Of a DNA stretch of 32,067 nt, positions 2,787 to 17,199 are shown one piece after another. Position 1 is the first letter of the stretch; each line of letters opens with the position of its first letter. Location of the stretch: the IMG/VR virus record IMGVR_UViG_3300029448_000208, positions 1 to 32,067 of that record. One strand, given 5' to 3'. Below the pieces are notes generated by a model that saw only the letters and a list, made by a program, of their open reading frames with translations, did no database searches and was not told the DNA's origin. This stretch comes from a virus. The translations under genes and the position numbers were made by a program.

Positions 2787-2809
2787 AATTAAGTGCCACT
2801 ATAGGGAAT
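2787..2809 (+). promoter_or_regulatory. T7-type phage RNA polymerase promoter (left end)
   Basis: The -17 to -1 element AATTAAGTGCCACTATA is followed by GGGAATA, with predicted +1 at 2804. It matches the T7 consensus at 11 of 17 positions by eye, including the whole CACTATA initiation block and the GGGA start. Two further sites with the same AAGTKCCACT core lie at 9987 and 16990. The position between terL and the first early gene matches the left-end promoters of T7 relatives. Confidence 0.75.
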
Positions 2810-2911
2810 AACCTTATAGTTTAATCTATAGTTACCTTTGTAAAAGAGAAGAATAGAGATAAATATAAATCAATAACAAGTAAGTTATAATTAAAACAGA
2901 TAGTTAAACCT

Positions 2912-3154
2912 ATGGTAAACAAAGTGATATACTTAAAGAGTATCTTTAAAGGTCTAAAGCCTAACAAGAAAGTTACTAAACTTATTGATGATGCTATTGT
3001 TAAAAGTGAAGTACTTGCACCTGTTAAAAAGAAGAAGTCTATTATAGATAGTCGACAGTTTATCCTAAAGAATACTGAAGATTTTCTTTTCTATGCTGTT
3101 GATTATTCTCTACAGGAGAAGTTTGATAGCACCGTATGGTCACCAGAGGAATAA
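2912..3154 (+). CDS. Small basic early protein, unknown function
   Basis: An 80-residue Lys-rich protein with no recognised family. Basic residues dominate residues 9-45, including a KKKK run near residue 40, while the C-terminal third is more acidic and aromatic (ENTEDFLFYAVDYSL-like). It is the first gene downstream of the left-end phage promoter, the place where T7-like phages keep small host-takeover proteins. That context suggests an early host-interaction role, but nothing in the sequence shows its target. Confidence 0.55.
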   Translation: MVNKVIYLKSIFKGLKPNKKVTKLIDDAIVKSEVLAPVKKKKSIIDSRQFILKNTEDFLFYAVDYSLQEKFDSTVWSPEE

Positions 3155-3441
3155 TTTGGTATAAAAATCTGACAACCTTATCGTAGTACACATTTTACAA
3201 AATTCCCCATAGGCCACGCCTGTAATTTTACAGAGGGGCATGGGTACTATCTACAACAAATGCAACATGTGTTGCACAAAACATAAATAAAAACATTATG
3301 GAATAACAAAAAGCACTAGTCTCTTGAACTAATCAGATAGATTTTTGTGGATTTTATTGTTTGGAATGATTTTAATTAGCAAATCTTACAAATAAATAAT
3401 TTGCTTTCATCTCTCTCATTATCTGTTTTGAAACTTAAAGT
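3155..3441. other. Non-coding segment between early gene and repressor
   Basis: No gene of credible length is visible in these 287 bases. They contain a possible hairpin CTGTA-ATTT-TACAG near 3220-3233 within a C/G-rich patch, the inverted repeat TGCAACA-TG-TGTTGCA at 3261-3276, and an 18-base near-copy (3313-3330) of the attP-like core found at 7172-7189. The two flanking genes converge, so transcription from both sides should end here, but no classic hairpin with T-run is clear. Confidence 0.4.
3261..3276. repeat. Inverted repeat TGCAACA-TG-TGTTGCA
   Basis: Two 7-base arms are separated by 2 bases. The arm is the same TGTTGCA word that is repeated three times in each orientation at 7091-7129 and 7284-7312. 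It lies downstream of the repressor gene and 36 bases before a near-copy of the attP-like core. It may be a regulator site or an integrase arm-type site. Confidence 0.5.
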
Positions 3442-4161
3442 CTAGTCGTGTGATAAATGTTTGTTAAACTTATCTTCAATGCTTACAAGGTTGTCTTGAT
3501 ACTTAGGTTCTTTGTAGTTTTCCATTAATGAAAAAGGAATGAAAGCTACAAACTTAACCCAATTTATTTTGTTATCAAATGGTACTCTTTTTAAAACTTC
3601 ACGACTTCTAGGGTGTATCATAATGTACTCTGTTTTATTACGAAGTATCATACCATACAAAGGGTCTTCATTTTCAGGGTAAGCCATAATTAATCTATTT
3701 ACACAAGTATCATTTATTTGGTCTGTATTCGTAAGACCTTTACCAGAAAACACATAAACAAAACCACCATAAGCATTACCTGATACACAAAGATAACCAA
3801 ATACAGGCGACCAATCTTTTATAAAAAGTATAGGAACAGGTACATTTATTGGTTGGGTAGGGTTCAATGTACGAACATGTGTATTCTCTATTATTTGACC
3901 AAGAATAGGCAAATCTCTAATACCATCAGCTTGTTCTTTAGCTTGTATTTGATTAGTGTATGCTTTTTTGATTTTGTAATAATTATCTAATGTTATATTT
4001 TGAGAGTTACTAGCACGATATAAAACATTCTTATCTATACCTGCTGTATTAATAATAGTATCTCTACCATGCTCTTTAATTAGCTTATTAATAAAATCAG
4101 AAAATTCCTTTAACGAAGAAGGAGACGTACCCATAAAATCATCTATAGCTTTATTTATCAT
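3442..4161 (-). CDS. CI-like phage repressor with HTH domain
   Basis: A 239-residue protein, the only convincing minus-strand gene. Residues about 33-66 (IINTAGIDKNVLYRASNSQ and following helix) look like a helix-turn-helix of the CI/Cro type. The C-terminal part from about residue 85 (LPILGQI start) resembles the LexA/CI S24-like fold in layout, but I see neither the usual Ala-Gly cleavage pair nor a clear catalytic Ser/Lys pair. It is transcribed divergently from the gene at 4316 across a region with inverted repeats, as expected for a lysogeny switch. It probably represses lytic early genes and perhaps the phage RNA polymerase; this role is inferred from domain and context. Confidence 0.75.
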   Translation of the reverse strand: MINKAIDDFMGTSPSSLKEFSDFINKLIKEHGRDTIINTAGIDKNVLYRASNSQNITLDNYYKIKKAYTNQIQAKEQADGIRDLPILGQIIENTHVRTLNPTQPINVPVPILFIKDWSPVFGYLCVSGNAYGGFVYVFSGKGLTNTDQINDTCVNRLIMAYPENEDPLYGMILRNKTEYIMIHPRSREVLKRVPFDNKINWVKFVAFIPFSLMENYKEPKYQDNLVSIEDKFNKHLSHD

Positions 4162-4181
4162 TTTATCTACCTATAAATGGT

Positions 4182-4211
4182 AATATATTAAATTAAATTT
4201 TATATCAACAA
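4182..4211 (-). promoter_or_regulatory. Candidate host promoter for the repressor
   Basis: Read on the minus strand, TTGTTG (4211-4206) and TATATT (4187-4182) are 18 bases apart, a reasonable sigma-70 -35/-10 pair placed about 21 bases before the repressor ATG. The leader would be very short. The region is extremely A+T-rich, so chance matches are likely. Confidence 0.35.
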
Positions 4212-4241
4212 TTATTTTTATTTAAGGGTTGATTTCTTATT

Positions 4242-4300
4242 TATAATATGCACAAGATACATTACTGATTTGCGAGTAATTTATCTCATATATCAGTAGA
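4242..4300 (+). promoter_or_regulatory. Candidate rightward promoter and operator region opposite the repressor
   Basis: A perfect -10 hexamer TATAAT lies at 4242-4247 without a good -35. Downstream, ATTACT (4261-4266) and AGTAAT (4275-4280) form an inverted repeat with an 8-base spacer, and TACTGAT (4263-4269) pairs with ATCAGTA (4292-4298). These dyads sit between the divergent repressor and the gene at 4316, where a CI/Cro-type operator is expected. Confidence 0.4.
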
Positions 4301-4315
4301 AATGGATAGGTAAAT

Positions 4316-4585
4316 ATGAGTGTATATATAATACAAACACCATCAAATCGTATGGTGTGTAAGTGTGAATTTCTTTTCACAATTAAACTGCATAAGTCTG
4401 AGGATTTGTCTAATCAGATGAAAAAACAGGTGAGGAGATTAAAAGTTGGGGAAGCTGTTAAGTTTCCCAACGGTCTTAAAGTAAAGCATTTGTCTGACCA
4501 GATGGTCGACAATATGGTTACATATATAAAGAGACGTAATTTAAACAAGGATAGCAACAATGATAGTAGCACTTCCAGTTTATGA
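4316..4585 (+). CDS. Small protein divergent from the repressor (Cro position)
   Basis: An 89-residue protein with a basic middle (MKKQVRRLKVGEAVKFPNG, about residues 35-53) and a Ser/Asn-rich disordered tail. No family is recognised. It is the first gene of the rightward operon that ends with the integrase, and is divergent from the repressor across dyad-containing DNA, which is the position of cro in lambdoid phages. No clear helix-turn-helix is visible, so a Cro role is only a positional guess. A short AGG-containing ribosome site lies upstream (near 4308-4311). Confidence 0.55.
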   Translation: MSVYIIQTPSNRMVCKCEFLFTIKLHKSEDLSNQMKKQVRRLKVGEAVKFPNGLKVKHLSDQMVDNMVTYIKRRNLNKDSNNDSSTSSL

Positions 4586-4721
4586 CGATTGGGGTCACGC
4601 TTTAGATAAACTAGAGAAACCTAAGTTAGCGAAAGCCTTAGAGGAAACTAGAGATAATTTAAAGCCTAGTGAACCCAAAGTAGAAATACTGGTAATACAA
4701 CAACCTGAAGACATAATTTAG
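4560..4721 (+). CDS. Small hypothetical protein
   Basis: A 53-residue frame starts at ATG 4560, overlapping the previous gene by 26 bases, and ends at TAG 4719-4721. It is a mixed-charge protein with a Lys/Glu-rich helical middle (KLEKPKLAKALEETRDNLK) and a hydrophobic strand near the C-terminus. No family is recognised. The overlapping arrangement and non-random composition support its being translated. Confidence 0.45.
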   Translation: MIVALPVYDDWGHALDKLEKPKLAKALEETRDNLKPSEPKVEILVIQQPEDII

Positions 4722-4746
4722 GTAGTTGGAGTTGCAATTTAGCACA

Positions 4747-4947
4747 ATGGCTAAAGCTAGATATACAATGTTTTACCCAGTTAAATTAATTTGTAGTGTT
4801 CTATTGATGTTCTGTTGAATAATGATATTTATAGGCTATCTATTTAAAAATTCTAAATGTTGTAGGTTGAAAACATCACACACAATATGTAGTAAAAATA
4901 GGGTAGTGCAGTCATTAGTAGTTGCATTACTGCAAGTTAGGAGATAA
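4747..4947 (+). pseudogene. Stop-interrupted small membrane-protein frame
   Basis: A 23-codon frame from ATG 4747 ends at TGA 4816-4818, and the same frame continues from ATG 4822 for 41 codons to TAA 4945-4947. The residues on both sides of the TGA are hydrophobic (VKLICSVLLMFC, then IMIFIGYLF) and would form a single membrane helix if joined. It may be a decayed gene, two peptides, or chance. There is no strong ribosome site for either part. Confidence 0.2.
4922..4935. promoter_or_regulatory. Operator-like palindrome TTGCA-N4-TGCAA, copy 1
   Basis: TTGCA-TTAC-TGCAA lies immediately upstream of the ribosome site of the gene at 4953, at the head of the block leading to the integrase. The same 14-base pattern occurs at 7262, 7313 and 9974. 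A wider repeat TGCAGT...ACTGCA overlaps it. Confidence 0.55.
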
Positions 4948-4952
4948 AGTTT

Positions 4953-5336
4953 ATGAAGTTAGGAAGTAAAATAATAATGATGTTAGCTTACAGCTTTTGT
5001 TATGTTTGGCATAAGGTTCGTTGTAGAGCCTTTAGACGGATAGACGATTTTAATTATCACGTCTTTGCCATTGACGCTAACCCACAGTTACCTTTTTATA
5101 AAAAGATTGTTGAGATTAACAACGTCTTTGAAAAAACTGTATCTGTAAAAATCGCAGATGTTTGCATTAGATTTTCAATAGATAAAACATTGAAACATTC
5201 TGATGTTATCATTGAAGAAATACCTGAGTGGGCAGTCAAGAGAGCATTAACAAAATCTAACGAGCAACATCACAAAGCAACAGTTCATACATTGAACAGA
5301 GAGGGAAGTGATGTCAAAAGAAGCAGTCGTAGGTAA
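4953..5336 (+). CDS. Hypothetical lysogeny-region protein
   Basis: A 127-residue protein preceded by a good ribosome site (TTAGGAGA, about 8 bases before the ATG). Residues about 5-20 are hydrophobic with aromatic residues (KIIMMLAYSFCYVWHKV) and could be a membrane anchor or signal-like segment. The rest is soluble with a basic Arg/Ser tail. No family is recognised. An operator-like palindrome lies just upstream and it overlaps the winged-helix gene that precedes integrase, so it is likely co-regulated with integration functions. Confidence 0.6.
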   Translation: MKLGSKIIMMLAYSFCYVWHKVRCRAFRRIDDFNYHVFAIDANPQLPFYKKIVEINNVFEKTVSVKIADVCIRFSIDKTLKHSDVIIEEIPEWAVKRALTKSNEQHHKATVHTLNREGSDVKRSSRR

Positions 5337-5751
5337 CTTAACTTTTGATAGGGAGTTTCTTGCTAAAGTAAAAGCTGTAGAAACTGCTAGAAGAAAAACG
5401 CTACATACAAATGGTGTACCAATGCACTACATGTTAGCGTTTAAAATAATATGTATACTTGATGAACAAGATTTATCTATCGAGAATATATCTGTAAAGT
5501 ACAGAGATGTTTTTGGTAGAGGTATCAATGCTTCATCATTATCAAGAACACTTTTATATTTATCGGAAAAACCTAAAGGTGGAGTGTTAGGATTAATTAC
5601 TTATGTTGATAATCCTTTCGCACCTTCAGATGGTAGATTTAAAGGTGTTGGTTTAACTGCAAGTGGTATCAGATTAAAAAAGATATTGTTAGGCCAAAGT
5701 ATTACACCTGCAACTGAACATGTTAAATCAAAAATAAGGAGTGTTAGATAA
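5311..5751 (+). CDS. Winged-helix-like DNA-binding protein upstream of integrase
   Basis: A 146-residue protein starting at ATG 5311 (an in-frame GTG precedes it) with GAGGGAAG as ribosome site. Residues about 35-115 resemble a MarR-type winged helix: a helix with FKIICILDEQDLSIENI, a recognition-helix-like GINASSLSRTLLYLS, then a wing with DGRFKGVGLTASGIRLKK. The stop overlaps the integrase ATG (TAATG). Its position next to integrase suggests a role in controlling integration/excision or lysogeny, for example a directionality factor, but this is inferred. The family call is by fold pattern, not by a named match. Confidence 0.6.
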   Translation: MSKEAVVGNLTFDREFLAKVKAVETARRKTLHTNGVPMHYMLAFKIICILDEQDLSIENISVKYRDVFGRGINASSLSRTLLYLSEKPKGGVLGLITYVDNPFAPSDGRFKGVGLTASGIRLKKILLGQSITPATEHVKSKIRSVR

Positions 5752-6953
5752 TGGAAATACCAAAAGGTATATATCGTAGAGGTGACAGTCTACAAGTACT
5801 TACAAGAAAAAGAATTAAAGGTGAAAAGAAACCTTTATCTCTTTCTGCTTCAGTACAAATAGATGAGTATAACTCATTAGACGAAGCTATAGTTGAAGCT
5901 AAGAAACTAAAGAAACTACAAAAAGAAACTATATCTACAAATGGTTTTAACAATACATTAAAAAAGAAAGTTAGAACTGTAGGTATACTAGGTGAAGTAA
6001 TACAAGATGTGTTAAAAGAAAAAGAACCTTTAGCTTCTTATACTAATCATAAAATCTATGCGAAAGATATTCTTGAATATTTTCCAAGAGATATAAGATT
6101 AGATGAGATGCAGACACAGCAACATTACAAAAACTTTAAAATAAAAATGCAAGATTTAATTTTAGCAAGACCTAGAAATAATCTTGGTAGTTACAACACA
6201 AGAAGTTTAAATAAACGATTAGGTTTTCTTCGTGATATATTTAAACATGGATTGACTAATAGATTATTGTCAGCAGATAAATTATTAGACAATAGTCCTG
6301 ATGCTATAGCTAGACACATGGGTTGGAGAAATGAAGCTGTAATTGAAACTAAACAAAAGAATATAATTACACCGCAAGATGAACAAGACATTGTTGATGA
6401 AGCTACATTTGATGGTGAACAAGAATTTGTTGATGCCTTCAGGTGGTTATTAAATGGTTATGGTATGCGTATTGAGTTTGAGTTTCAGAAACTAACAGTT
6501 GATTTGATTAAGTTTCCAAGAGGTAAAGATACTAAATGTACAATCAATTTTTTCCGAAATAAAACTAAAAAGTGGTCAGGTGATTTACCAATGAATGAAG
6601 TAACTAAAGAGATTGCATTAAGATACAGGTCAGTAGCTTTTGCAAGAGCAGATAAAAAGTTATTTCCTACCATGACTAAACGTAGACTACGTACATTGTT
6701 TGAGAAATATTCTAAAAGATTAAAGTTAGATATTACACCTTACTGTACGAAGCATACGTTCATTACAAGATTAGCTGAAAATAAAAATCCTATAAAGACT
6801 ATATCTAAACTTGCAGGTATATCTCAGGACACAGCTTTAAAGTATTATAACCAAGTTACAGATGAAGGTATGGAAGAAGCTATGCAGTCATTAGAGAATG
6901 ATAGTAGTAAAGTAGTATCTATGTATGGTCATAATCGGAGATTGCAGAATTAA
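5751..6953 (+). CDS. int: Tyrosine-recombinase integrase
   Basis: A 400-residue phage integrase with an N-terminal arm-binding-like part (about 1-75), a core-binding SAM-like region (about 78-180) and a C-terminal catalytic domain. The first catalytic Arg is visible in NGYGMRIEFEFQKL (Arg240), and the nucleophile in DTALKYYNQV is Tyr365 or 366. The box that usually reads HxLRHT is here PYCTKHTFIT, with Tyr331 for His and Lys334 for Arg, and the usual GH before the Tyr is GI. The protein should recombine the phage attP with a host tRNA gene. It is followed 31 bases later by tRNA-Leu and an attP-like region, which supports this. Confidence 0.92.
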   Translation: MEIPKGIYRRGDSLQVLTRKRIKGEKKPLSLSASVQIDEYNSLDEAIVEAKKLKKLQKETISTNGFNNTLKKKVRTVGILGEVIQDVLKEKEPLASYTNHKIYAKDILEYFPRDIRLDEMQTQQHYKNFKIKMQDLILARPRNNLGSYNTRSLNKRLGFLRDIFKHGLTNRLLSADKLLDNSPDAIARHMGWRNEAVIETKQKNIITPQDEQDIVDEATFDGEQEFVDAFRWLLNGYGMRIEFEFQKLTVDLIKFPRGKDTKCTINFFRNKTKKWSGDLPMNEVTKEIALRYRSVAFARADKKLFPTMTKRRLRTLFEKYSKRLKLDITPYCTKHTFITRLAENKNPIKTISKLAGISQDTALKYYNQVTDEGMEEAMQSLENDSSKVVSMYGHNRRLQN

Positions 6954-6984
6954 ATGAAACCTGCTATTTACACTACAAAAATTT

Positions 6985-7068
6985 GGGCGAGTGGTGGAAT
7001 GGTAGACACGCCAGTCTTAGGAACTGGTCGAGCAATCGGTGAAGGTTCAAGTCCTTTCTCGCCTACCA
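6985..7068 (+). tRNA. tRNA-Leu (anticodon UAG), complete with CCA
   Basis: All arms can be folded: acceptor GGGCGAG/CTCGCCT (one G-T pair), D arm GTG/CAC with GG in the loop, anticodon stem CCAGT/ACTGG with loop CTTAGGA (anticodon TAG), a long class II variable arm with CGA/TCG stem, T stem GAAGG/CCTTT with loop TTCAAGT, discriminator A and encoded CCA. It reads CUA codons. It lies between int and the attP-like repeats. It may be a functional phage tRNA, part of the attachment site, or both. Confidence 0.92.
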
Positions 7069-7090
7069 GAAGCAACAACTGGAAAAAGTT

Positions 7091-7312
7091 TGTTGCACAG
7101 GGTGTTGCATTAATTAATCTTTGTTGCACAATAAATTGTGAAAAGGAGAGTTTTAAGGGAAAAAGCCTAAGGCACTAGTCTTAGGAACTCTTTCTCTTAA
7201 AATTATTTTCACAAGTGCAATTAGTTAGCTAATAGCAACACCTTTTTTTAAAAACTAATACTTGCACTACTGCAATAGTTACTGTGCAACGTGCAACAGA
7301 ACTAGTGCAACA
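7091..7312. other. attP: Probable phage attachment site (attP) with arm-type repeats
   Basis: Three direct TGTTGCA(C/T) copies (7091-7098, 7103-7110, 7122-7129) lie left of a core, and three GTGCAAC(A) copies in the opposite orientation (7284-7290, 7291-7298, 7305-7312) lie right of it. The core has CCTAAG (7166-7171) and CTTAGG (7180-7185) as inverted 6-base arms around 8 bases, and includes AGTCTTAGGAACT (7177-7189), a perfect 13-base copy of the tRNA-Leu anticodon stem-loop at 7013-7025. Arm-type repeats around an inverted core next to int is the standard lambda-family attP layout. The assignment is inferred from that layout. Confidence 0.55.
7262..7275. promoter_or_regulatory. Operator-like palindrome TTGCA-N4-TGCAA, copy 2
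   Basis: TTGCA-CTAC-TGCAA is about 77 bases before the RNA polymerase start. Its spacer resembles that of copy 1. It is within the region of arm-like repeats, so integrase binding is an alternative to repressor binding. Confidence 0.5.
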
Positions 7313-7326
7313 TTGCATTAGTGCAA
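7313..7326. promoter_or_regulatory. Operator-like palindrome TTGCA-N4-TGCAA, copy 3
   Basis: TTGCA-TTAG-TGCAA ends 25 bases before the RNA polymerase ATG and just before its ribosome site. A protein bound here would block transcription into, or translation start of, the polymerase gene. It touches the rightmost GTGCAACA repeat. Confidence 0.55.
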
Positions 7327-7351
7327 ACAATATAAGGAGAATGTTCACATT

Positions 7352-8329
7352 ATGTCTGATGAACCTAAAACATTGCTACAACAACAATTAGCCGAACTTA
7401 TTAAAGTTGGTGTTGGTGGTAAATTTAAAGATAGAAATGATTATGTAAGCCAAGTAACTAAAGAACTAGAGTTTGAGGAAGCTATGTTACGTGGTGGTAT
7501 TAATCGTTACAATAAAGCAGTAAATGACGCCAAAACTAAAGGCCAAGAAAGTACTACGATATATGGCCTAGTTTTACAGCAAAAGTACATCAATGAATTA
7601 TCTAATAAAATTAATGATGATGTTAAGATGATGGACAAAGGACAAGCAGGTAATTATCAAACTGCTCTTAAATTATTATGTCAATGTCTACCACCTACAG
7701 CTTTTGATAATGGTGTCTTTTTAGATAAGCGTATAAGCGTATGGGATACTTGTTCTCTGATTGCATTGAAGAATACTATTGATGGTATTTCAGATGAAAT
7801 AACAATGAACAAACTATCTATACAAATAGGTACTGGTTTAATGCACGAAGCAAGAATAACCAAGTTTAAGTATGACCATAAAGAACAATACAATAATGTA
7901 GCTAAAAAGTTATCAGGTAAAAACATACCCCAAAATACTAATAGGTATCAATACAAACAGAAGGTATGGACTTATTGTATGAATAAGCATGGTCTTGCTT
8001 TTAATGACTGGACTAAAGAACAAAGACTTCATTTAGGTGTAAAGATAATAGGATATATGGAACAGTTGGGTCTCATTAGACACCAACATAGAAAACTTAA
8101 TATAAAGAAAACTGTTATTTATATTGAAGCAACACCAAAGATTATTGAAGAAATAAAAAACTTTAATATTAAAAACGAAGCCTTGTTTCCAAAATTTTTA
8201 CCAATGAAAATGCCACCACGTGATTGGACTTCACCTTTTCTGGGTGGTTACTATGGTAAAAAATTCAACGATACAAATAACCCAGAGGAGATAGCACGTG
8301 CATTACAATCTAATAAAAGCGACAAATAG
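7352..8329 (+). CDS. T7-type RNA polymerase, N-terminal domain part
   Basis: This 325-residue protein matches the N-terminal domain of single-subunit phage RNA polymerases, which in T7 is about residues 1-325 and handles promoter melting, AT-rich recognition and early RNA. Recognisable segments are IGTGLMHEARITKFK, the block YKQKVWTYCMNKHGL, LHLGVKIIGYMEQLGL, and MPPRDWTSPFLGGYY near residues 285-301. The frame stops with TAG at 8327 just after this domain, and the catalytic domain is encoded in the +1 frame from 8298. The two may be a natural two-subunit polymerase, or one gene with a frameshift or sequence error. Repeats with operator character precede the gene. Confidence 0.85.
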   Translation: MSDEPKTLLQQQLAELIKVGVGGKFKDRNDYVSQVTKELEFEEAMLRGGINRYNKAVNDAKTKGQESTTIYGLVLQQKYINELSNKINDDVKMMDKGQAGNYQTALKLLCQCLPPTAFDNGVFLDKRISVWDTCSLIALKNTIDGISDEITMNKLSIQIGTGLMHEARITKFKYDHKEQYNNVAKKLSGKNIPQNTNRYQYKQKVWTYCMNKHGLAFNDWTKEQRLHLGVKIIGYMEQLGLIRHQHRKLNIKKTVIYIEATPKIIEEIKNFNIKNEALFPKFLPMKMPPRDWTSPFLGGYYGKKFNDTNNPEEIARALQSNKSDK

Positions 8330-9971
8330 AAGATACTTAGAAGAACTTAACAACAGATGGCATGAGTTTCCTGATGTTCCTAAATGTGTAAACATAATGC
8401 AAAAAACTGAATGGGTTATTAACTCACCAGTATTTGATGTATTAAACAAATGTTTAGAAGAAGATTTACCTTTAGGAAAATTACCGATTAATCCTCAAAG
8501 TATGGAACTTCCACCTAAACCTTTTGATATTGAAACTAATGTTGAAGCAAGACGTGAATGGAAAAGAAAAGCACAACGTGTCTATAAAAACAGAGCCAAG
8601 TCTAAATCTAAATACATTCAAGTAAAACAAATAATAGAAGAAGCAAAACATTTTGCAAATGAGGAAGGTTTCTTTTATCCATATCAACTTGACTTTAGAG
8701 GTCGTATATATCCAAAAAGTACACTCATGTCTCCACAGTCAGCAGACTACGCAAGAGCATTACTTAAATTTAAATTTGGTAGACCAATGACAGACAATGA
8801 AGCATTTGTAGATTTTGCTATTGCAGGTGCAGGATTATTTGGTGAAGTTGATAAAGAACAAATAGATATAAGAACTAAATGGGTAGAAGATAATAGTCAA
8901 AAATTTATTGACTGTGCTAACAAACCTTTTGAATACACATGGTGGACAGAAGCAGATAAACCATTTTGTTTTTTAGCTTGGTGTATTGAGTATCGAGATT
9001 TTGCTAATACTGATTTTGATGCAAAGTTTATTACAACTTTACCAATACAATCTGATTGTTCTAATTCAGGTCTACAACATTATTCAGCTATGATGAGAGA
9101 TGAAGTGGGCGGTAGTGCAACTAATCTTGTACCACAAAATAAACCTGCTGATGTTTATGGTCTAGTTGCTGATAAACTTATTATTAAATTAAAAGACAAT
9201 AATAAACCAATGGCTAAAAAATGGTTAGACTATGGAGTAGATAGAAAACTTTGTAAGAAACCTGTCATGTGTTTACCTTACAGTTTGACAATGTATTCTT
9301 GTAGACAATACTTACAAGACCATGTTGAAAAAGAATATGTTGAACGTAATAGACAGCATGAGTTTGGTGAAGATTTATTTCAAGCTACACAATGGTTGAC
9401 ACCTATTTTATGGAACGCAATTAATGAAGTTATTGTAGGTGCTAAAGAGATAATGAAATTTTTAAAAGATGTTTCAAAGTTAGTTGCTTCTGAAAATTTA
9501 CCTGTGGTATGGACTTCACCGCTTGGCTTACCAATTCAAATGCTATGTTATAAAAAAGAAAGTAAAAGAGTTAAGACACAAATGGGTGATAGTATAATTA
9601 AATTATCGTTACAATCAGATACAGATATAATTAATCGTAGAGCCGTAGCTCAAGCTATCTGCCCAAATTTTATTCATCACCTCGATAGTGCAACACTTAT
9701 GTTAGCTGTAGTTAAAGCTGAAGAAATGGGAGTTGATACTTTTAGTCTTATCCATGACAGCTTTGGTGTAGTAGCACCTGACAGTAGGAAAATGGCCACA
9801 GCATTACGTGATGCTTTTTGTGAGATATATAGCAAAGATGTACTGGCTAATTGGGCTATGGAAATGAAGCAAATGTTATCAGAAAAAAATCAAAAGAAGT
9901 TTCCTAATATACCAGAAAAAGGAAACCTTGATTTAGATTTAGTTAAACAAAGTGTGTTCTTTTGCGTATAA
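8298..9971 (+). CDS. T7-type RNA polymerase, catalytic (palm/fingers) part
   Basis: A 557-residue frame carries the whole polymerase domain of a T7-like RNA polymerase. Catalytic Asp253 lies in SDCSNSGLQHYSAMMRDEVGG (T7 Asp537), Lys321 in the O helix RKLCKKPVMCLPYS with Tyr328 (T7 Lys631, Tyr639), and Asp487 in LIHDSFG (T7 Asp812). The specificity-loop region is about 418-445. The GTG start at 8298 has AGAGGAG (8284-8290) seven bases upstream, a strong ribosome site, and overlaps the N-terminal part by 32 bases. Joined by a +1 shift the total would be about 872 residues, close to the 883 of T7. The product transcribes the phage middle and late genes. Confidence 0.92.
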   Translation: MHYNLIKATNRRYLEELNNRWHEFPDVPKCVNIMQKTEWVINSPVFDVLNKCLEEDLPLGKLPINPQSMELPPKPFDIETNVEARREWKRKAQRVYKNRAKSKSKYIQVKQIIEEAKHFANEEGFFYPYQLDFRGRIYPKSTLMSPQSADYARALLKFKFGRPMTDNEAFVDFAIAGAGLFGEVDKEQIDIRTKWVEDNSQKFIDCANKPFEYTWWTEADKPFCFLAWCIEYRDFANTDFDAKFITTLPIQSDCSNSGLQHYSAMMRDEVGGSATNLVPQNKPADVYGLVADKLIIKLKDNNKPMAKKWLDYGVDRKLCKKPVMCLPYSLTMYSCRQYLQDHVEKEYVERNRQHEFGEDLFQATQWLTPILWNAINEVIVGAKEIMKFLKDVSKLVASENLPVVWTSPLGLPIQMLCYKKESKRVKTQMGDSIIKLSLQSDTDIINRRAVAQAICPNFIHHLDSATLMLAVVKAEEMGVDTFSLIHDSFGVVAPDSRKMATALRDAFCEIYSKDVLANWAMEMKQMLSEKNQKKFPNIPEKGNLDLDLVKQSVFFCV

Positions 9972-9973
9972 AC

Positions 9974-9987
9974 TTGCACTTGTGCAA
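9974..9987. promoter_or_regulatory. Operator-like palindrome TTGCA-N4-TGCAA, copy 4
   Basis: TTGCA-CTTG-TGCAA starts two bases after the polymerase stop and abuts the first base of the phage promoter at 9987. With the outer bases the arms are TTGCAC and GTGCAA. It is far from int, which favours a transcriptional operator over an integrase arm site for this family. Confidence 0.55.
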
Positions 9988-10008
9988 ATAAAGTTCCACT
10001 TATGACTA
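9987..10008 (+). promoter_or_regulatory. Phage RNA polymerase promoter before the DNA-metabolism genes
   Basis: AATAAAGTTCCACTTAT is followed by GACTA, with predicted +1 at 10004. It shares the AAGTKCCACT core and the upstream A/T block with the promoters at 2787 and 16990. The initiation block TAT-GAC is less T7-like than in the left-end site. It stands directly before the gp2.5-like gene, where T7 has class II promoters. Confidence 0.55.
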
Positions 10009-10041
10009 GATTAACCTCTGGTCTAACAATAGGAGACAAAT

Positions 10042-10626: not shown

Positions 10627-11017
10627 TACGCAAACCTTAAAATCAGGGTTGGAAGAATTAGTTTACAACTTTTTTAAAAAAGAAAAACTTTCTTTTACTT
10701 ATGAAGGTATGAAAATTACATACTTCCAACCTGCTATTAAGAAAACGTATACACCAGATTTTATAACTAAAAAAATCATTATCGAAACGAAGGGTGCATT
10801 TAATAGTGCAGATAGAAAAAAGATGAGACTTATTAAAAGTCAAAATCCTGAACTTGACATTCGTTTTGTGTTCTCCAACGCAAAAACCAAGATTGGTAAA
10901 AAATCAAAAACTACTTATGGCAAGTGGTGTGAGATGTTTAACTTCCCATATCATTGTGTCACTACAACAAAACAAACATTCCCAACAGAATGGATAAAAG
11001 AAATTAAGGAAAAATAA
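10583..11017 (+). CDS. Endonuclease I, Holliday-junction resolvase (T7 gp3-like)
   Basis: The product resolves branched phage DNA and degrades host DNA. Motifs match T7 gp3 in order: SGLEELV, TYTPDFITKKIIIETKG (catalytic Asp, Glu and Lys), DRKKMRLIKSQNPELDIRFVFS, TTYGKWCEMF and a terminal PTEWIKE. I chose ATG 10583 (144 residues; T7 gp3 is 149) because AGGA lies five bases upstream and homology begins just after it. The frame extends back to 10517 but would overlap the SSB gene more deeply. It overlaps SSB by 44 bases and ends one base before the lysozyme start. Confidence 0.92.
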   Translation: MKYNRQKFKRVQISSTQTLKSGLEELVYNFFKKEKLSFTYEGMKITYFQPAIKKTYTPDFITKKIIIETKGAFNSADRKKMRLIKSQNPELDIRFVFSNAKTKIGKKSKTTYGKWCEMFNFPYHCVTTTKQTFPTEWIKEIKEK

Positions 11018-11018
11018 A

Positions 11019-11534
11019 ATGGCAAGAGAAAAAACAAAATATATTGTAGTTCATTGTTCCCAGACAAGGCCAAGCCAAGACTGGGGTGCAAAGGAAATAG
11101 ACAGAGTACATAGAGAATTTGGGTGGCTTAAAATTGGCTACGGAAAAGTAATTAAAAGAAATGGCGAGGTTCAGCAAGGCCGAGCAGATGACGCAGTACA
11201 GGCTCATGTTAAAGGTTATAATCATTGTGCCTACGGATTATGTTTAATAGGTGGCGCACAAGAAGATGATTGGCGTAAAGGTGAAGACAATTACACCTCA
11301 GAGCAATGGGAAAGTTTAAAAAAAGTTTTAGAAGAATTAGTTGTTAAATATCCTGAAGCAAGAATTGTAGCGCACTATGAATTAGACGAAAGTAAAACAT
11401 GTCCTAACTTTAGCGTAAGAGATTATTTATTACATGAAGATGTAAAAGGTTATAAATTTCAAGATGGTCTAACTGATGATGCTGACTTAGCTGAATTAGA
11501 ACCTGATGACTTTCCTGAAATAGATGACGAATAA
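11019..11534 (+). CDS. N-acetylmuramoyl-L-alanine amidase / T7 lysozyme-like
   Basis: This amidase cuts the peptide-glycan bond in peptidoglycan; in T7 the same protein also binds and restrains the phage RNA polymerase. Zinc ligands are His12 (YIVVHCS), His119 (VAHYEL) and Cys128 (KTCPNF), with Tyr41 and Lys126 in the expected places; HAKGYNH-like HVKGYNH is also present. The length is 171 residues against 151 in T7, owing to an acidic tail of about 23 residues (DGLTDDADLAELEPDDFPE). Position after endonuclease I and before primase-helicase matches T7 3.5. It overlaps the next gene by 11 bases. Confidence 0.92.
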   Translation: MAREKTKYIVVHCSQTRPSQDWGAKEIDRVHREFGWLKIGYGKVIKRNGEVQQGRADDAVQAHVKGYNHCAYGLCLIGGAQEDDWRKGEDNYTSEQWESLKKVLEELVVKYPEARIVAHYELDESKTCPNFSVRDYLLHEDVKGYKFQDGLTDDADLAELEPDDFPEIDDE

Positions 11535-13098
11535 GTTTCTCCATCATAGCCCTTGTGAGAACTGTGGTAGCCGAGACAATCTAGGCGTATGGGAAGACCA
11601 TACATATTGTTTCGGTTGCCGACAGTACAAAACAACTAATGGAGACTTACCAAAAATAGAAAAGAAAAGGATAGATTTTAAGATGATTGAAGGAATTGTT
11701 GAAGCACTTCCTAGTAGAAAAATAGATAGTGATACTTGTAAAAAGTTTAATTACCAGACAGGTACTTACAAAGGTAAGCCTTGTCATATTGCAAACTACT
11801 ACGATAAAAATTTAAAAATTACAGCACAGCATTTAAGATTTGCTGACAAGTCATTTATATGGCTTGGTGATACAAATACCATATCTCTCTTTGGTCAAAA
11901 CTTATGGAGAGATGGCGGTAATAAATCTAAAGTTATTATAACTGAAGGTGAAATTGACTGTCTCTCCGTAAGTAAAATACAAAACAATAGATACCCAGTT
12001 GTCTCAGTACCTTCAGGTGCTACGTCAGCTAAAAAATATATTAAAAGAGAATTAGAATGGTTGTCTAAATTTGAGACTATTGTCTTAATGATGGATAATG
12101 ATGATGCAGGTAAAAAAGCAACTATTGAATGTGCTAATATATTACCTGTTAAAAAAGTTAAGATAGCATCTCTACCTGCAAAAGACCCAAATGAATTATT
12201 ACAAACTGGTCAATCAGGTAAATTATATGATGCTATATGGGAAGCCAAATCATATACACCACAAGGTATTATTGAAGGTGACCAAACAAAAGATTTATTG
12301 CTTAAAGATGATTATGTAGAAACTATTCCTTATCAATGGAATGGCCTAAATAAAAAACTTGGTGGTATTAGAAAAGGTGAACTTGTTTTATTAACAGCAG
12401 GTTCAGGTACAGGTAAGTCACAAGTCTGTAGAGAAATAGCACACCATTTAATCTGTAACAAACAGAAGGTTGGTTATATTGCTTTAGAAGAAAGTGTTAA
12501 GAGAAGTATTAGAGGTGTTGTTTCTGTAGGCTTAAATCAACTAATACATTTACCTGAAGTTAGACAAAAGATTTCTGACGAAAAAATTTTAGAGGAGTGG
12601 GAAAAAGTAAAAAACTATATTTGCTTTTATGAACACTTTGGTAGTTCAGACACAGATGATTTAATGAACCGTATTAGATATATGGTGCAGTCATTAGATT
12701 GTAAGACAATTATATTAGACCACATATCAATAGTAGTATCAGGTATTGGTGAAGGTGATGAAAGAAGATTAATAGATAACACTATGACACAACTAAGAAA
12801 GTTAGTTGAAGAATTAGGTTGTGCATTATTTTTAGTATCACATTTAAAAAGACCTGAAGGTAAAGGCCACGAAGAAGGTACACAAGTTTCTCTTTCTCAC
12901 CTCAGAGGTAGTCACAGTCTTGCAACTCTAGCAGACGAAGTGATTGCCTTTGAAAGAAACCAACAAGATGAAATTAATTCTAACATAATGAAAGTAAGAG
13001 TTTTAAAAAATAGATACTCAGGTGACACAGGTATTGCTTGTGATTTAGTTTACAATAAAGATACAGGTAGATTATCTGAAGGAAGTTTTGATGAATGA
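11524..13098 (+). CDS. DNA primase-helicase (T7 gp4-like)
   Basis: A bifunctional 524-residue protein (T7 gp4A is 566). The N-terminal zinc ribbon has Cys11, Cys14, Cys29 and Cys32 (CENC...CFGC). The TOPRIM primase part shows IITEGEIDCLSV near residue 140 and VLMMDNDDAGKKA near 188. The hexameric helicase has Walker A LLTAGSGTGKS near 289-299, TIILDHISIVVSG as Walker B, and the LFLVSHLKRP and HLRGSHSLATLADEV motifs. It unwinds DNA and makes primers at the phage fork with the neighbouring polymerase and SSB. The start overlaps the lysozyme end. Confidence 0.95.
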   Translation: MTNKFLHHSPCENCGSRDNLGVWEDHTYCFGCRQYKTTNGDLPKIEKKRIDFKMIEGIVEALPSRKIDSDTCKKFNYQTGTYKGKPCHIANYYDKNLKITAQHLRFADKSFIWLGDTNTISLFGQNLWRDGGNKSKVIITEGEIDCLSVSKIQNNRYPVVSVPSGATSAKKYIKRELEWLSKFETIVLMMDNDDAGKKATIECANILPVKKVKIASLPAKDPNELLQTGQSGKLYDAIWEAKSYTPQGIIEGDQTKDLLLKDDYVETIPYQWNGLNKKLGGIRKGELVLLTAGSGTGKSQVCREIAHHLICNKQKVGYIALEESVKRSIRGVVSVGLNQLIHLPEVRQKISDEKILEEWEKVKNYICFYEHFGSSDTDDLMNRIRYMVQSLDCKTIILDHISIVVSGIGEGDERRLIDNTMTQLRKLVEELGCALFLVSHLKRPEGKGHEEGTQVSLSHLRGSHSLATLADEVIAFERNQQDEINSNIMKVRVLKNRYSGDTGIACDLVYNKDTGRLSEGSFDE

Positions 13099-13360
13099 GA
13101 AACTTTTAACTAAATTTATTTTATCTTTCCTAATACAAAAAGAAGATTATTTAGAATTAAATAAGACACAGCAACAGGTGGTCTATCAAACATGTAAGAC
13201 TATTATGTTAGCTATTTATAATGCTATTAAATATGAAAATGTCTACCCAGTTATTATGTGTGGTGACATTGAAGCACAAAAAATAATAAGAACTGCACTT
13301 AAAAAAGTTGCAGAGTTTTTACCAAGTACAGAAAAAATTACAATCCATACAATCCAATAA
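13091..13360 (+). CDS. Hypothetical protein between helicase and DNA polymerase
   Basis: An 89-residue protein from ATG 13091 (a TTG in frame at 13088 is less likely), overlapping the helicase end by 8 bases. It is predominantly helical and hydrophobic/charged with no recognised domain; a central stretch (VVYQTCKTIMLAIYNAIKY) could be an amphipathic helix. T7 keeps small genes (4.3-4.7) of unclear function in this slot. Its stop overlaps the next small gene (TAATG). Confidence 0.6.
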   Translation: MNEKLLTKFILSFLIQKEDYLELNKTQQQVVYQTCKTIMLAIYNAIKYENVYPVIMCGDIEAQKIIRTALKKVAEFLPSTEKITIHTIQ

Positions 13361-13527
13361 TGCACAAATGTAAAGTTTGTAAGAAGACTGCACATGTAGT
13401 TGAGAATAAAGAATACTACTGTGCCAGTTGTTCCTTAAAAAAACAAAAAATATATGAAACTAATAATAGACTTAGAGACAAACAATCTCTTAGAAAAATT
13501 AGACAAAATTCATTGTATTGTCTGTAA
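13360..13527 (+). CDS. Small zinc-ribbon protein
   Basis: A 55-residue frame begins at ATG 13360, overlapping the previous stop, and ends inside the DNA polymerase gene. Two CxxC pairs (Cys4/Cys7 in HKCKVCKK, and Cys21/Cys24 in YYCASCSL) 14 residues apart form a classic zinc ribbon or knuckle. The C-terminal half is basic (RLRDKQSLRKIRQ), which would suit nucleic-acid binding. The 74-base overlap with the polymerase start is long, but the ordered cysteines argue that at least the first 30 codons are real. Confidence 0.55.
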   Translation: MHKCKVCKKTAHVVENKEYYCASCSLKKQKIYETNNRLRDKQSLRKIRQNSLYCL

Positions 13528-15220
13528 GGATATAGAGACTAATCAAGTCTATCAATATAATCCTGACAATCTCAAAGATAGTCTAGAGTTGCTAAACAAA
13601 GCTACAGTTTTAATAGGTCATAACATACAAGGTTTTGATTTACCTGTATTAGAAAAGATATTTAATTTTAAATTTGATGGTGAAGTTTATGATACATTAT
13701 TAGTATCAAGACTTATCTATACTAATTTATTAGATAGTGATTATAAACATAAAGAACTACCTGCAAAATTATACGGAAGACATTCATTAGAAAGTTGGGG
13801 TTACAGATTAGGTTTACGTAAAGGTGACTACCAAGAACATTCAGACTTTACAGAATATAATTTAGACATGATGGATTATTGTGAACGTGATGTAGAGGTT
13901 ACACATTTATTATTTCAAAAATTAATTAAAGAAAACTATTCATCACAATCTATAGAGTTAGAACATAACTTCGCACATTGGATTAGAAAACAAGAACAAC
14001 ATGGTATACTATTTGATGAGACGTCTGCTCAGACGCTTTTATCTATCCTAACAAAAAGAAGACTATCGCTAGAAGAAGAACTTTCGGTAGTCTTCCCAAG
14101 TTGGAGTAAGTCATTAGGTTTTAAAACTTATAAAAGAGATAATATAAAACGAGGTATAAAAGCAGGTATACCTGTTGAACAATTTAAAACAGAAATATTT
14201 AATCCTAATTCAAGGCAACATATTGCAGATAGATTAATTAATGTTTTAGGTTGGAAACCAAAATCATTTACTGCAACTGGTATACCAGAAGTAAATGAAA
14301 AAATTCTAAACGAACTACCATACCCAGAAGCTAAAAAGATTTCTGAATATTTAATGATACAGAAAAGATTAGGCCAACTGAGTGATGGTGAACAAGCATA
14401 TTTAAAATTAAATAACAAAGGGAAAATTTATGGAAAAGTTAATACATTGGGTACATACACAGGCAGGTGCAGTCACAATAGCCCCAACCTTGCACAATGT
14501 GTGGCGTCAGGTAGTCCTTATGGTAAAGAATTTCGTTCCTTATTTATTTCTCCTTCCGATATGGATTTCGTTGGTATTGATTTTAGCGGTTTGGAGTTGC
14601 GTGTGCTTTCTCATTACATGGCTTCATACGATAGTGGTGACTTTGGGAAAAGATTACTTGAAGATGATATACATACCCAGAACCAAAAAGCTACAGGACT
14701 TGCCACACGTAATAAAGCTAAAACTTTCATTTATGCTTACATATACGCTTGTGGAAATGCGACACTCAGTAAATTACTTGATGTCAGTTTGGAAGAAGCC
14801 AAAAGAGTAAGAGCAAAATTTGAAAAGGAATTACCTGCATTAAAAATATTAGCTGATGCAGTCAAAAATAAATATAGAAACTTTGGTTATCTAAAAGGTA
14901 TTGATGGTAGACGTCTTATACCTAAAGCAGAATATAGTTCATTAAATACTTTAATCCAAGCATGTGGCTCAACATTGGTAAAGATGGGTACAATATTTTT
15001 AAACCAAGAGTTACACAAATCAGGTTTTAAGTGGGGTGAAGATTATGTCATGGTACTACACGTACATGATGAAATGCAGTTTTACGTTAAAAAAGAAAAG
15101 ACAGAACAATTTAAAGAAATAGCAAAAACTATTTTTCAATTAACACAAGACTACTTTAAATTTAAGACACCTTTAGATGGTGAGATTAAAGTAGGAAATA
15201 CTTGGAGTGATACCCATTAA
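13454..15220 (+). CDS. Family A DNA polymerase (T7 gp5-like)
   Basis: A replicative polymerase of 588 residues. The 3'-5' exonuclease is intact: Asp6/Glu8 in IIDLETNN, GHNIQGFDLPVL, and DYCERDVEVT. The polymerase domain has motif A DFSGLELRVLSHYM (about residue 376), O-helix TRNKAKTFIYAYIYACG with Arg, Lys and Tyr positions as in T7 Arg518/Lys522/Tyr526, and motif C HVHDEMQF (about 536). T7 gp5 is 704 residues; much of the difference lies in the thumb, where the thioredoxin-binding insert is reduced to a few tens of residues. It may therefore use a different processivity mechanism. Confidence 0.95.
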   Translation: MKLIIDLETNNLLEKLDKIHCIVCKDIETNQVYQYNPDNLKDSLELLNKATVLIGHNIQGFDLPVLEKIFNFKFDGEVYDTLLVSRLIYTNLLDSDYKHKELPAKLYGRHSLESWGYRLGLRKGDYQEHSDFTEYNLDMMDYCERDVEVTHLLFQKLIKENYSSQSIELEHNFAHWIRKQEQHGILFDETSAQTLLSILTKRRLSLEEELSVVFPSWSKSLGFKTYKRDNIKRGIKAGIPVEQFKTEIFNPNSRQHIADRLINVLGWKPKSFTATGIPEVNEKILNELPYPEAKKISEYLMIQKRLGQLSDGEQAYLKLNNKGKIYGKVNTLGTYTGRCSHNSPNLAQCVASGSPYGKEFRSLFISPSDMDFVGIDFSGLELRVLSHYMASYDSGDFGKRLLEDDIHTQNQKATGLATRNKAKTFIYAYIYACGNATLSKLLDVSLEEAKRVRAKFEKELPALKILADAVKNKYRNFGYLKGIDGRRLIPKAEYSSLNTLIQACGSTLVKMGTIFLNQELHKSGFKWGEDYVMVLHVHDEMQFYVKKEKTEQFKEIAKTIFQLTQDYFKFKTPLDGEIKVGNTWSDTH

Positions 15221-15578
15221 TTCAAAAGCAAGACCTCATTTTGATAAGGATTTAAAATTCGGACAACAATATGAAAATGAACTTCAAGAAATGGTTGAAG
15301 GTAAAGTTGAAGTTAAGACAGATAGGTTATGTCAAAAGACAGGTAATGTATTTGTAGAGATAGAAGATAAAGGTAAACCTTCAGGAATAAATACAAGTAA
15401 GTCTCCTTACTATGCTTTTTGTTTATACAAAAGTGAAAGAGTAAAGCAGGTGTGGGTATTGATACCTACAAAAATTTTAAAAAAATTAATGAAGAAGTAT
15501 CCAATTAAAAAAGGTGGAGACCATTGGGAAGCTAGAGGTCACATTATACCTAAAGAGGATTTATTAAAATATGACTAG
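15207..15578 (+). CDS. Hypothetical protein, possible PD-(D/E)XK nuclease-like
   Basis: A 123-residue protein overlapping the polymerase end by 14 bases. It has FGQQYENELQEMVEG, then VEVKTDRL, then GNVFVEIEDKGKPSGI and SPYYAFCLY. A conserved Glu in the first helix, followed by acidic-x-Lys and E(I/V)E strands, is suggestive of the PD-(D/E)XK nuclease fold, and its location among replication nucleases fits. The motif spacing is judged by eye, so the assignment is tentative. It overlaps the next gene by 8 bases. Confidence 0.5.
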   Translation: MIPINSKARPHFDKDLKFGQQYENELQEMVEGKVEVKTDRLCQKTGNVFVEIEDKGKPSGINTSKSPYYAFCLYKSERVKQVWVLIPTKILKKLMKKYPIKKGGDHWEARGHIIPKEDLLKYD

Positions 15579-15864
15579 TAAAATAAAATTACCTGATGTT
15601 TATAAAAAAGATTTTCCTTACAAATTTTATAAGTGTTGGTGGAGTGATATAACCAGTTGCAGTTCGTGGAATACTATTTCAGATATTAAAAAATCTAAAA
15701 CAGCAGTCTGTATAACAATGGGTTGGTTAATCCATTCAAGTGAAGACAAGTTTGTTTTGATAGGTGACATTACATTTAATGATGATGGCACAGTCAATGA
15801 GGGTGGTAACTCAACAGTAATACCAAAATCAAATGTACTAAAAATGAAAGAGATAAAACTATGA
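15571..15864 (+). CDS. Hypothetical protein in the replication operon
   Basis: A 97-residue protein with an aromatic-rich N-terminus (FPYKFYKCWWSDITS) and several short beta-like segments (TAVCITMGWLIHS, FVLIGDITF). No function is evident. It sits between the putative nuclease and the 5' exonuclease with overlaps of 8 and 4 bases, so it is translated as part of the replication block. Confidence 0.6.
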   Translation: MTSKIKLPDVYKKDFPYKFYKCWWSDITSCSSWNTISDIKKSKTAVCITMGWLIHSSEDKFVLIGDITFNDDGTVNEGGNSTVIPKSNVLKMKEIKL

Positions 15865-16748
15865 CACAGTTAGATGAAAGACACTTTCTTATTCATAGTG
15901 CAAACAAAGCCAAAGCACATGAAAAGAAAAAAATGAGTAACATAAATGATTTCTACGACAATACAAACAAAGTGATGATAGTAGATGGTGACCTAATTAT
16001 ATATAAGATTACTTCTGCATTAGAAGAAGCTATTGATTGGGGTGATGATGTATGGACTTTACACGCAGATTTAGCTGTAGGTAAACAAGTATTTAAACAA
16101 AATATGGAATGGTATAAAAATTATACTAAGTCTAAAGAAATTATTGTTGCCTTTTCTGATAAGAAAAATTTTAGAAAAGAGTTTGATGATACTTATAAAT
16201 CACACAGAAAAAAAATTAGAAAGCCTGTTTGTTATCAAGCATTAAGAAAATGGGTAGAAAAACATTATCATTTTTATACTTTACCTAATTTAGAAGGTGA
16301 TGATGTAATAGGTATTCTAGCTACTCAACATTACAAAACTAATAACGTAATTATTAGTGGTGATAAAGATATGAGAACAATACCATCTTGGCATTGTTTT
16401 ATTGGTGATGACCAACTTGAATATGTTGATGAAGATAAAGCCAACTATAATTTCTTTACACAATGTTTAGTTGGTGATGCAAGTGATGGTTATAAAGGAT
16501 TAGTTGGTTGTGGAGCAGTAAAAGCATCAAGAGTTCTTTTAGATAAGAAAACTGTAGATGAACTATGGGAAGCTGTAATTAAAGAATATGAAAGAGCAGG
16601 TTTTACATTTGAAGACGCATATCATCAAGCAAGACTAGCAAGAATACTTAGAAAAGATGAATATGATTATGCAACAAACAAACCAACATTATGGAGTTAT
16701 AAATATGAACACTACAGAGATACTAGAAACTACAAAAAATCTAGTTAG
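15861..16748 (+). CDS. 5'-3' exonuclease / flap endonuclease (T7 gp6-like)
   Basis: A 295-residue FEN-family nuclease that removes RNA primers, degrades host DNA and assists recombination. Metal-binding acidic residues appear in VMIVDGDLIIY (Asp42, Asp44), NLEGDDVIG (Glu144, Asp146, Asp147) and SGDKDM (Asp167, Asp169). A helix-three-turn-helix-like segment follows (GDASDGYKGLVGCGAVKA). The ATG at 15861 overlaps the upstream stop; an internal Met25 could also serve, since conserved sequence begins near residue 36. Length and order (after DNA polymerase) agree with T7 gp6 (300 residues). Confidence 0.9.
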   Translation: MTQLDERHFLIHSANKAKAHEKKKMSNINDFYDNTNKVMIVDGDLIIYKITSALEEAIDWGDDVWTLHADLAVGKQVFKQNMEWYKNYTKSKEIIVAFSDKKNFRKEFDDTYKSHRKKIRKPVCYQALRKWVEKHYHFYTLPNLEGDDVIGILATQHYKTNNVIISGDKDMRTIPSWHCFIGDDQLEYVDEDKANYNFFTQCLVGDASDGYKGLVGCGAVKASRVLLDKKTVDELWEAVIKEYERAGFTFEDAYHQARLARILRKDEYDYATNKPTLWSYKYEHYRDTRNYKKSS

Positions 16749-16995
16749 TAACGATAGAAACGACAAGCATGGTGATAAGTTAGAAAACCATCAAAACATT
16801 GCTAGATTATGGACTAGCTACATACAAAATAAAACCTCTACAGATTTAATTATTCTTCCTGAAGATGTTGCTAATCTTATGGCCTTATTAAAGATAGCTA
16901 GAACACAAGCAGGACAGCATAACATTGATGACTACGTAGATGCTTGTGGTTACTCTGCAATAGCAGGTGAAATAGCACAGAGGAAAAGTGAATAA
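16705..16995 (+). CDS. DUF6378-like phage protein
   Basis: A 96-residue protein, taking ATG 16705 because GGAG lies nine bases before it and the conserved sequence begins there; the frame itself extends upstream to 16657. The pattern NDRNDKHGDKLENHQNIARLW, DVANLMALLKIART and DDYVDACGYSAIAGE matches a widespread small phage family named DUF6378. Its function is unknown; the conserved acidic/His pattern recalls MazG-like nucleotide hydrolases but this is not established. It overlaps the exonuclease gene by 44 bases. Confidence 0.7.
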   Translation: MNTTEILETTKNLVSNDRNDKHGDKLENHQNIARLWTSYIQNKTSTDLIILPEDVANLMALLKIARTQAGQHNIDDYVDACGYSAIAGEIAQRKSE

Positions 16996-17012
16996 GTTCC
17001 ACTTTAGGAGAA
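16990..17012 (+). promoter_or_regulatory. Phage RNA polymerase promoter before the virion genes
   Basis: GAATAAGTTCCACTTTA is followed by GGAGAAAA, with predicted +1 at 17007. It matches the left-end promoter (2787) at 13 of 17 positions. It overlaps the end of the DUF6378-like gene and stands before the structural block, where T7 has its class III promoters. Its GGAG also serves as the ribosome site of the gene at 17017, giving an almost leaderless-length 5' end of about 10 bases. Confidence 0.65.
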
Positions 17013-17016
17013 AACA

Positions 17017-17199
17017 ATGCCAAAAAACGTAGAAACACCAATTCTTAGTGAAGAACTAATTGATTATTTGGATACGCTTTTTCCAGAAAAATGTGCTGAC
17101 CTTCAGGATACTGAAAAAGAAATTTTTTATAAATCTGGCCAAAGGTCAGTCGTTAAACATTTAATAGAAAAACATAAATTACAAAAGGAGACGGATTAA
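17017..17199 (+). CDS. Small hypothetical protein heading the virion block
   Basis: A 60-residue acidic-then-basic helical protein (ELIDYLDTLFPEKCADL, then SVVKHLIEKHKLQKE) preceded by TAGGAG. No family can be named. It directly follows a phage promoter and overlaps the next gene by one base, occupying the slot of the small T7 genes 6.5-6.7. Confidence 0.6.
   Translation: MPKNVETPILSEELIDYLDTLFPEKCADLQDTEKEIFYKSGQRSVVKHLIEKHKLQKETD

Follow-up and report, generated by a model that had tools for sequence, protein, structure and literature searches.

Probable SP6-like promoter recognition in a two-piece T7-type polymerase system of a pelagiphage, and a probable repressor operator at one promoter

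Introduction

In T7, the specificity loop of the phage RNA polymerase reads promoter bases -12 to -8. Here we describe probable promoters of a T7-type polymerase, and a probable repressor operator at one of them, in the virus record of a Stopavirus/Fussvirus-type pelagiphage with SAR11-type hosts (IMG/VR record IMGVR_UViG_3300029448_000208, positions 1 to 32,067; these 32,067 bases are hereafter the window). The gene order of this phage is T7-like, with a gene for a MarR-like regulator, an integrase gene and a tRNA-Leu gene preceding the polymerase. Phage LUZ100, a relative by gene order, has promoters that were mapped by ONT-cappable-seq and that stand in the same three slots as those described below; the lysogeny model of its authors has MarR acting at the polymerase gene's promoter, with no operator proposed at the promoter of the single-stranded DNA-binding protein (SSB) gene (PMC10134795).

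Among the pelagiphages themselves, the split polymerase of Group III has been known since 2019 (Chen et al., 2019, PMC6811365), and promoters and MarR are absent from the text of that paper. The transcriptome of HTVC022P, a member of another pelagiphage group, resolves early, middle and late classes, with MarR and the polymerase expressed early and promoters unmentioned (PMC12753301). For SAR11 phages, no promoter of a T7-type polymerase turned up in the literature searched, whose coverage left many subscription papers outside. SAR11 phages are among the commonest marine viruses, and with a promoter consensus transcription units could be delimited in a large number of metagenomic contigs.

Results

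Three sites in the window are very likely promoters of the phage's own single-subunit, two-piece T7-type RNA polymerase, transcription being what we infer from the sites, their register, their conservation and a matching polymerase loop, all of which are seen in the sequence. Site 1 lies at 2787 to 2804 (AATTAAGTGCCACTATAG from -17 to +1, with the +1 G at 2804), site 2 at 9987 to 10004 (AATAAAGTTCCACTTATG, +1 G at 10004) before the SSB gene, and site 3 at 16990 to 17007 (GAATAAGTTCCACTTTAG, +1 G at 17007) before the virion block. All three are on the + strand, in one orientation with the genes, and have the layout of T7-type promoters: a compact -17 to +1 element with an AT-rich upstream block at -17 to -13, a recognition block at -12 to -5 (AGTKCCAC) running into a CACT core, a melting region spanning -4 to -1, and a start at G. 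Exact AAGTKCCACT occurs three times in the window against 0.21 expected, a count reached by none of 100 shuffled sequences, and WAAGTKCCACTWWWG occurs three times against 0.00 expected. Only 5% of the window is non-coding, yet sites 1 and 2 are entirely non-coding and site 3 overlaps the preceding gene by its first 6 bases only, through the TAA stop. The first-pass annotation had picked out these three positions by their common motif, had credited site 1 with the full T7 block and had read the sites as promoters of the encoded polymerase. Positions and motif are confirmed, CACTATAGGGA is indeed present in site 1 and occurs once in the window, and the promoter reading very probably holds, the sites being conserved at the same gene borders in relatives.

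With one mismatch allowed, AAGTKCCACT was no more frequent in the window than expected by chance, and we therefore adopted exact and weight-matrix searches; CACTATAGGGA with two mismatches was found in the window less often than chance predicts. The matrix, derived from 26 different sites of relatives and excluding the window and its closest genomes, gave scores of 29.3, 23.8 and 25.5 for sites 1, 2 and 3, while the best scores in 60 random sequences averaged 11.2 and peaked at 19.7. Another candidate, CAATATAAGGA at 7328 upstream of the polymerase gene, is no promoter according to the matrix. In the early region, scanning for sigma-70 promoters and terminators returned fewer promoter-like matches than shuffled sequence and was uninformative.

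The cognate polymerase is encoded in the window by two overlapping frames on the + strand, an N-terminal half (RPOL_N) at 7352 to 8329 and a catalytic half carrying an SP6-like specificity loop at 8298 to 9971. Positions D537, K631, Y639 and D812 are conserved. The split falls near T7 residue 300, so that the half contacting the AT-rich block and the half bearing the specificity loop are separate polypeptides. The polymerases of HTVC041P, S30-C28, Eyrgjafa and Gjalp are split in the same way; between the halves HTVC025P carries two further open reading frames (ORFs), and in HTVC011P the halves are fused.

Looking for the motif at the same borders in relatives was the check that the first-pass annotation had set for itself, and the sites are conserved there. 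The window's terminase is 93-94% identical to those of HTVC041P and the fosmid genome MedDCM-OCT-S30-C28, and 78-89% identical to those of HTVC011P, HTVC025P, Eyrgjafa and Gjalp; all six full genomes have promoter matches at the same borders, and the motif recurs there in HTVC041P, HTVC025P, Fussvirus genomes and dozens of IMG/VR contigs. Using contig sets retrieved via other genes rather than via the motif, and counting a matrix score of 20 or more as a strong site, we found a strong site after the terminase in 54 of 65 contigs (four of those without one have a flank of at most 364 bases) and before the portal cassette in 24 of 26, the two exceptions being distant ones, 42-44% identical. In the SSB gap the best site was at the expected place in 38 of 38 contigs, 33 of them scoring 22 or more, although these loci partly fed the matrix. 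A gene-independent scan of IMG/VR with the pattern AATWAAGTNCCACTNNNGG pointed the same way: of the 107 new loci among the matches listed, 69 belonged to relatives of the phage, compared with 1 of 81 when the pattern was reversed, and 62 of the 74 matches in relatives fell at the three borders.

Several observations weigh against this picture. Many contigs are near-copies, so the conservation counts are not independent; L159, L162, L174, L184, L185, L188 and L194 have no strong site at the terminase border; and the other 12 of the 74 scan matches, again among those listed, fall within the polymerase gene in a more distant group, whose polymerase is about 40% identical. In that group L224 (5275-5293, - strand) and L301 carry a full promoter-like pattern at the border between the N- and C-terminal parts of the gene. 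These matches can be read as the peptide ELSATIG and are probably a coding coincidence, an internal promoter being the alternative.

The slots occupied by the sites are familiar ones. Site 2 stands in the phi2.5 slot and site 3 in the phi6.5 slot, where LUZ100 has its mapped phi2/3 and phi6, and the transcript start of site 1 lies 64 nucleotides past the terminase stop, in a slot that holds phiOR in T7, T3 and K11 and phi8 in LUZ100; in SP6 a promoter spans the terminase stop codon. Since the contig crosses the terminase/early junction, site 1 faces the early region. Early genes are read before the phage polymerase exists, however, so a promoter for that polymerase cannot start the early programme, and site 1 is better read as a phiOR-like promoter at the likely concatemer junction than as an early-region promoter. 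The first-pass placement before the early, SSB and virion blocks thus stands for sites 2 and 3 and gives way to the slot after the terminase for site 1. Its T7-like organisation likewise survives in three T7 slots but lacks a counterpart of phi10, as the matrix scan of the window found no site before the capsid gene (T7 phi10) or before the polymerase gene (LUZ100 phi1). Functionally, site 1 would drive the terminase-proximal concatemer junction, site 2 the SSB/replication block and site 3 the virion block. A transcript from site 3 (17007-17019) would start GGAGAAAACAATG, with a Shine-Dalgarno-like GGAG at its extreme 5′ end and a 10-nucleotide leader, an arrangement kept in relatives.

A border motif of this kind might instead be a replication origin, a packaging or recombination signal or an RNA processing site. 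Site 1 is at the likely concatemer junction, tandem copies are frequent in relatives (the terminase-proximal promoter is duplicated about 49-73 bp apart in L005 at 36366-36540, L008 at 5434-5512 and L019 at 2223-2320), and transcripts from site 1 could form short hairpins, leader hairpins there being frequent and their conservation not clear. We nevertheless consider such an element very improbable, as one motif, always in the same orientation, precedes gene blocks that are unrelated, in the T7-type register from -17 to +1 and starting at G, and the specificity loop of the polymerase matches it. Promoters can also serve as origins, as in T7, so an origin reading and the promoter reading are compatible.

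We compared the recognition block with promoters drawn from the T7, T3, K11, SP6 and LUZ100 records. Over -12 to -8, where SP6 has GGTGA, sites 1 to 3 match SP6 at 3-4 of 5 bases, T7 at 1 and T3 at 0-1. The polymerase loop, which is independent evidence, points the same way as the promoter block: over the specificity loop (T7 residues 739-770) the window's polymerase is identical to SP6 at 15 of 28 positions and to T7, T3, K11 and LUZ100 at 4-7 of 30, whereas outside the loop it is 29-33% identical to all five alike (binomial p of about 0.008 for the SP6 loop identity). On this evidence recognition block and specificity loop appear SP6-like, not simply diverged from T7. The first-pass annotation, which saw divergence from T7 at these bases, was right that the block differs from T7; what does not hold is that it is merely a diverged T7 block. 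Over all 18 promoter positions SP6 is the best match for sites 1 and 4 (16 of 18; site 4 is described below). Not everything favours SP6, however: for sites 2 and 3 it merely ties over the 18 positions with T3, K11, LUZ100 or T7, and the loop of HTVC011P is identical to that of SP6 at only 10 of 28 positions. The Eyrgjafa loop, at 12 of 28, is also weaker than that of the window's polymerase.

The first-pass list of three sites was sound as far as it went but missed a fourth. Site 4, at 28045 to 28062 (+ strand, +1 G at 28062) within the internal virion protein D gene, is the SP6-like variant AATTTGGTGACACTTTAG, with GGTGACAC as its recognition block; it matches SP6 at 5 of 5 bases from -12 to -8, and contains GGTGACACT, the exact SP6 sequence from -12 to -4. 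Its matrix score is 15.1, which is below the highest random maximum of 19.7, and it lies in frame within a conserved peptide, GDTLGE, which might simply happen to spell an SP6 promoter. We regard such a coincidence of coding as unlikely. The site is at the same place in 17 of 17 sequences listed, and 7-codon windows across it have the top synonymous conservation within the first 250 codons. In nine diverged genomes its GGT, GAC, ACT and GGA codons are invariant, while all other invariant Asp and Gly codons vary (hypergeometric p of about 5e-4). At two other borders, the virion border in HTVC011P and the terminase border in L143, the GGTGACACT variant stands in place of the standard one, and its presence there supports promoter function for site 4. 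Site 4 is thus a probable promoter, conserved beyond coding need, and would probably drive the internal-virion/tail end.

Site 2 is set apart by an inverted repeat, TTGCACTTGTGCAA, at 9974 to 9987 (no strand assigned), covering -30 to -17 of the promoter; promoters other than site 2 are without it. A cluster of TGCAC/GTGCA half-sites (7215 to 7326, likewise unstranded) lies upstream of the polymerase gene and is a probable operator array, and the gene for the MarR-like winged-helix regulator, a probable repressor, is found at 5311 to 5751 (+ strand), directly upstream of the integrase gene. A comparable repeat starts 16-19 bases before AAGT in 24 of 24 tabulated genomes. It comes in two main types (A and B), TTGCAC/GTGCAA and CGACAC/GTGTTG, and TTGCACTTGTGCAA and CGACACCTGTGTTG are putative operator sequences for MarR-like proteins, one of each type. 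Set against its best match in the polymerase-upstream DNA of its own genome, the SSB repeat has a mean of 1.3 (type A) or 3.0 (type B) mismatches, against 2.7 or 3.2 in other genomes of the same type, 5.3 or 5.0 in those of the other type, and 5.0 for random 14-mers. The putative recognition helix of the regulator switches with the repeat type, reading SSLSRTLxYL or TTSTVRNMxRL.

These patterns suggest that the repeat at the SSB promoter is probably an operator of the MarR-like repressor, and that this regulator probably controls the polymerase gene as well as the SSB promoter via inverted repeats. Two points tell against this reading: the regulator is assigned to its family by weak profile hits together with fold and gene order, and operator types also follow clades, so that common descent may contribute to the co-switch. 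As to the first, the structure predicted using sequences from the window and IMG/VR only is a winged helix (predicted local distance difference test, pLDDT, 81). Its top Foldseek matches are MepR, MarR and MexR, at E above 0.03; in structure comparison Z is 8-9, other winged-helix families scoring alike. Against PDB profiles the regulator gave a weak match to TcaR (E 0.0037), one member of the family matches the NCBIfam TcaR model at 2e-05, and the regulator is related to the LUZ100 MarR protein (hhalign 93%); searched alone, it had no match in Pfam or PHROGs.

The repeat might also be an RNA hairpin ending the polymerase transcript, or a part of the promoter. It comes directly after the polymerase stop codon and could pair as RNA, and its types follow clades, so the co-switch could partly reflect common descent. 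No U-run follows it, however; the same sequence stands again 2.6 kb away before the polymerase gene, alike within a type and not across types; its type co-varies with the regulator's recognition helix; and the other promoters lack it. On balance we find this explanation doubtful and prefer the operator.

Three neighbouring features were recorded alongside. The tRNA-Leu gene (6985-7068), after the integrase gene, is the likely attachment site and the sole Rfam match in the window. A terminator-like hairpin on both strands at 7166-7185 (CCTAAGGCACTAGTCTTAGG) lies between tRNA-Leu and the half-site cluster. The only clear leftward gene, a 239-amino-acid ORF at 3442-4161 (- strand), is possibly a second lysogeny regulator; neither Pfam nor PHROGs has a match for it, and its relatives (40-68%) are in HTVC041P, HTVC011P, L010 and L038.

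Discussion

The system appears to combine SP6-like recognition with a two-piece T7-type setting, and a repressor apparently acts directly on one of the promoters. The promoters would be of a known kind with a new variant in recognition, and the link to an operator the more novel part. Because the repeat covers -30 to -17 of the SSB promoter, a dimer sitting there should interfere with the contacts that the polymerase makes upstream, and in a prophage the MarR-like repressor would restrain the polymerase gene and the replication-gene promoter together. Whether it does both, blocking the T7-type polymerase at its own SSB promoter and repressing the polymerase gene in a double lysogeny lock, with at least two non-cross-reacting repressor/operator types that would behave like immunity groups, is to our minds an evenly balanced question. 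Such coupling of a promoter to a probable repressor site would bear on the silence of temperate T7-like phages, and would allow immunity groups to be predicted from sequence. The polymerase/promoter pair, for its part, should be orthogonal to T7 and possibly cross-reactive with SP6.

Compared with SP6 (Zindervirus SP6, AY288927), the likeness lies in GT(G/T) at -11 to -9, the CACT core, the exact SP6 stretch in site 4 and the specificity loop. The differences are that sites 1 to 3 have C at -8 and A at -12, with -9 variable, and that the pelagiphage polymerase is in two pieces and, outside the loop, no nearer SP6 than T7 (30%). With T7, T3 and K11 the window shares the slots of phiOR behind the terminase, phi2.5 ahead of SSB and phi6.5 ahead of the virion block, the register and the T7 block in site 1, but it has another recognition block and specificity loop, three or four promoters where those phages have 13-17, and no counterpart of phi10 or phi1.x. 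LUZ100 resembles it in having an integrase gene and a gene for a related MarR protein before the polymerase, and differs in its motif (AATTACCACACAGTTATGG), its loop and a promoter before the polymerase gene, which the pelagiphage window is without. Our data suggest a second MarR target beyond the LUZ100 model, the SSB promoter itself.

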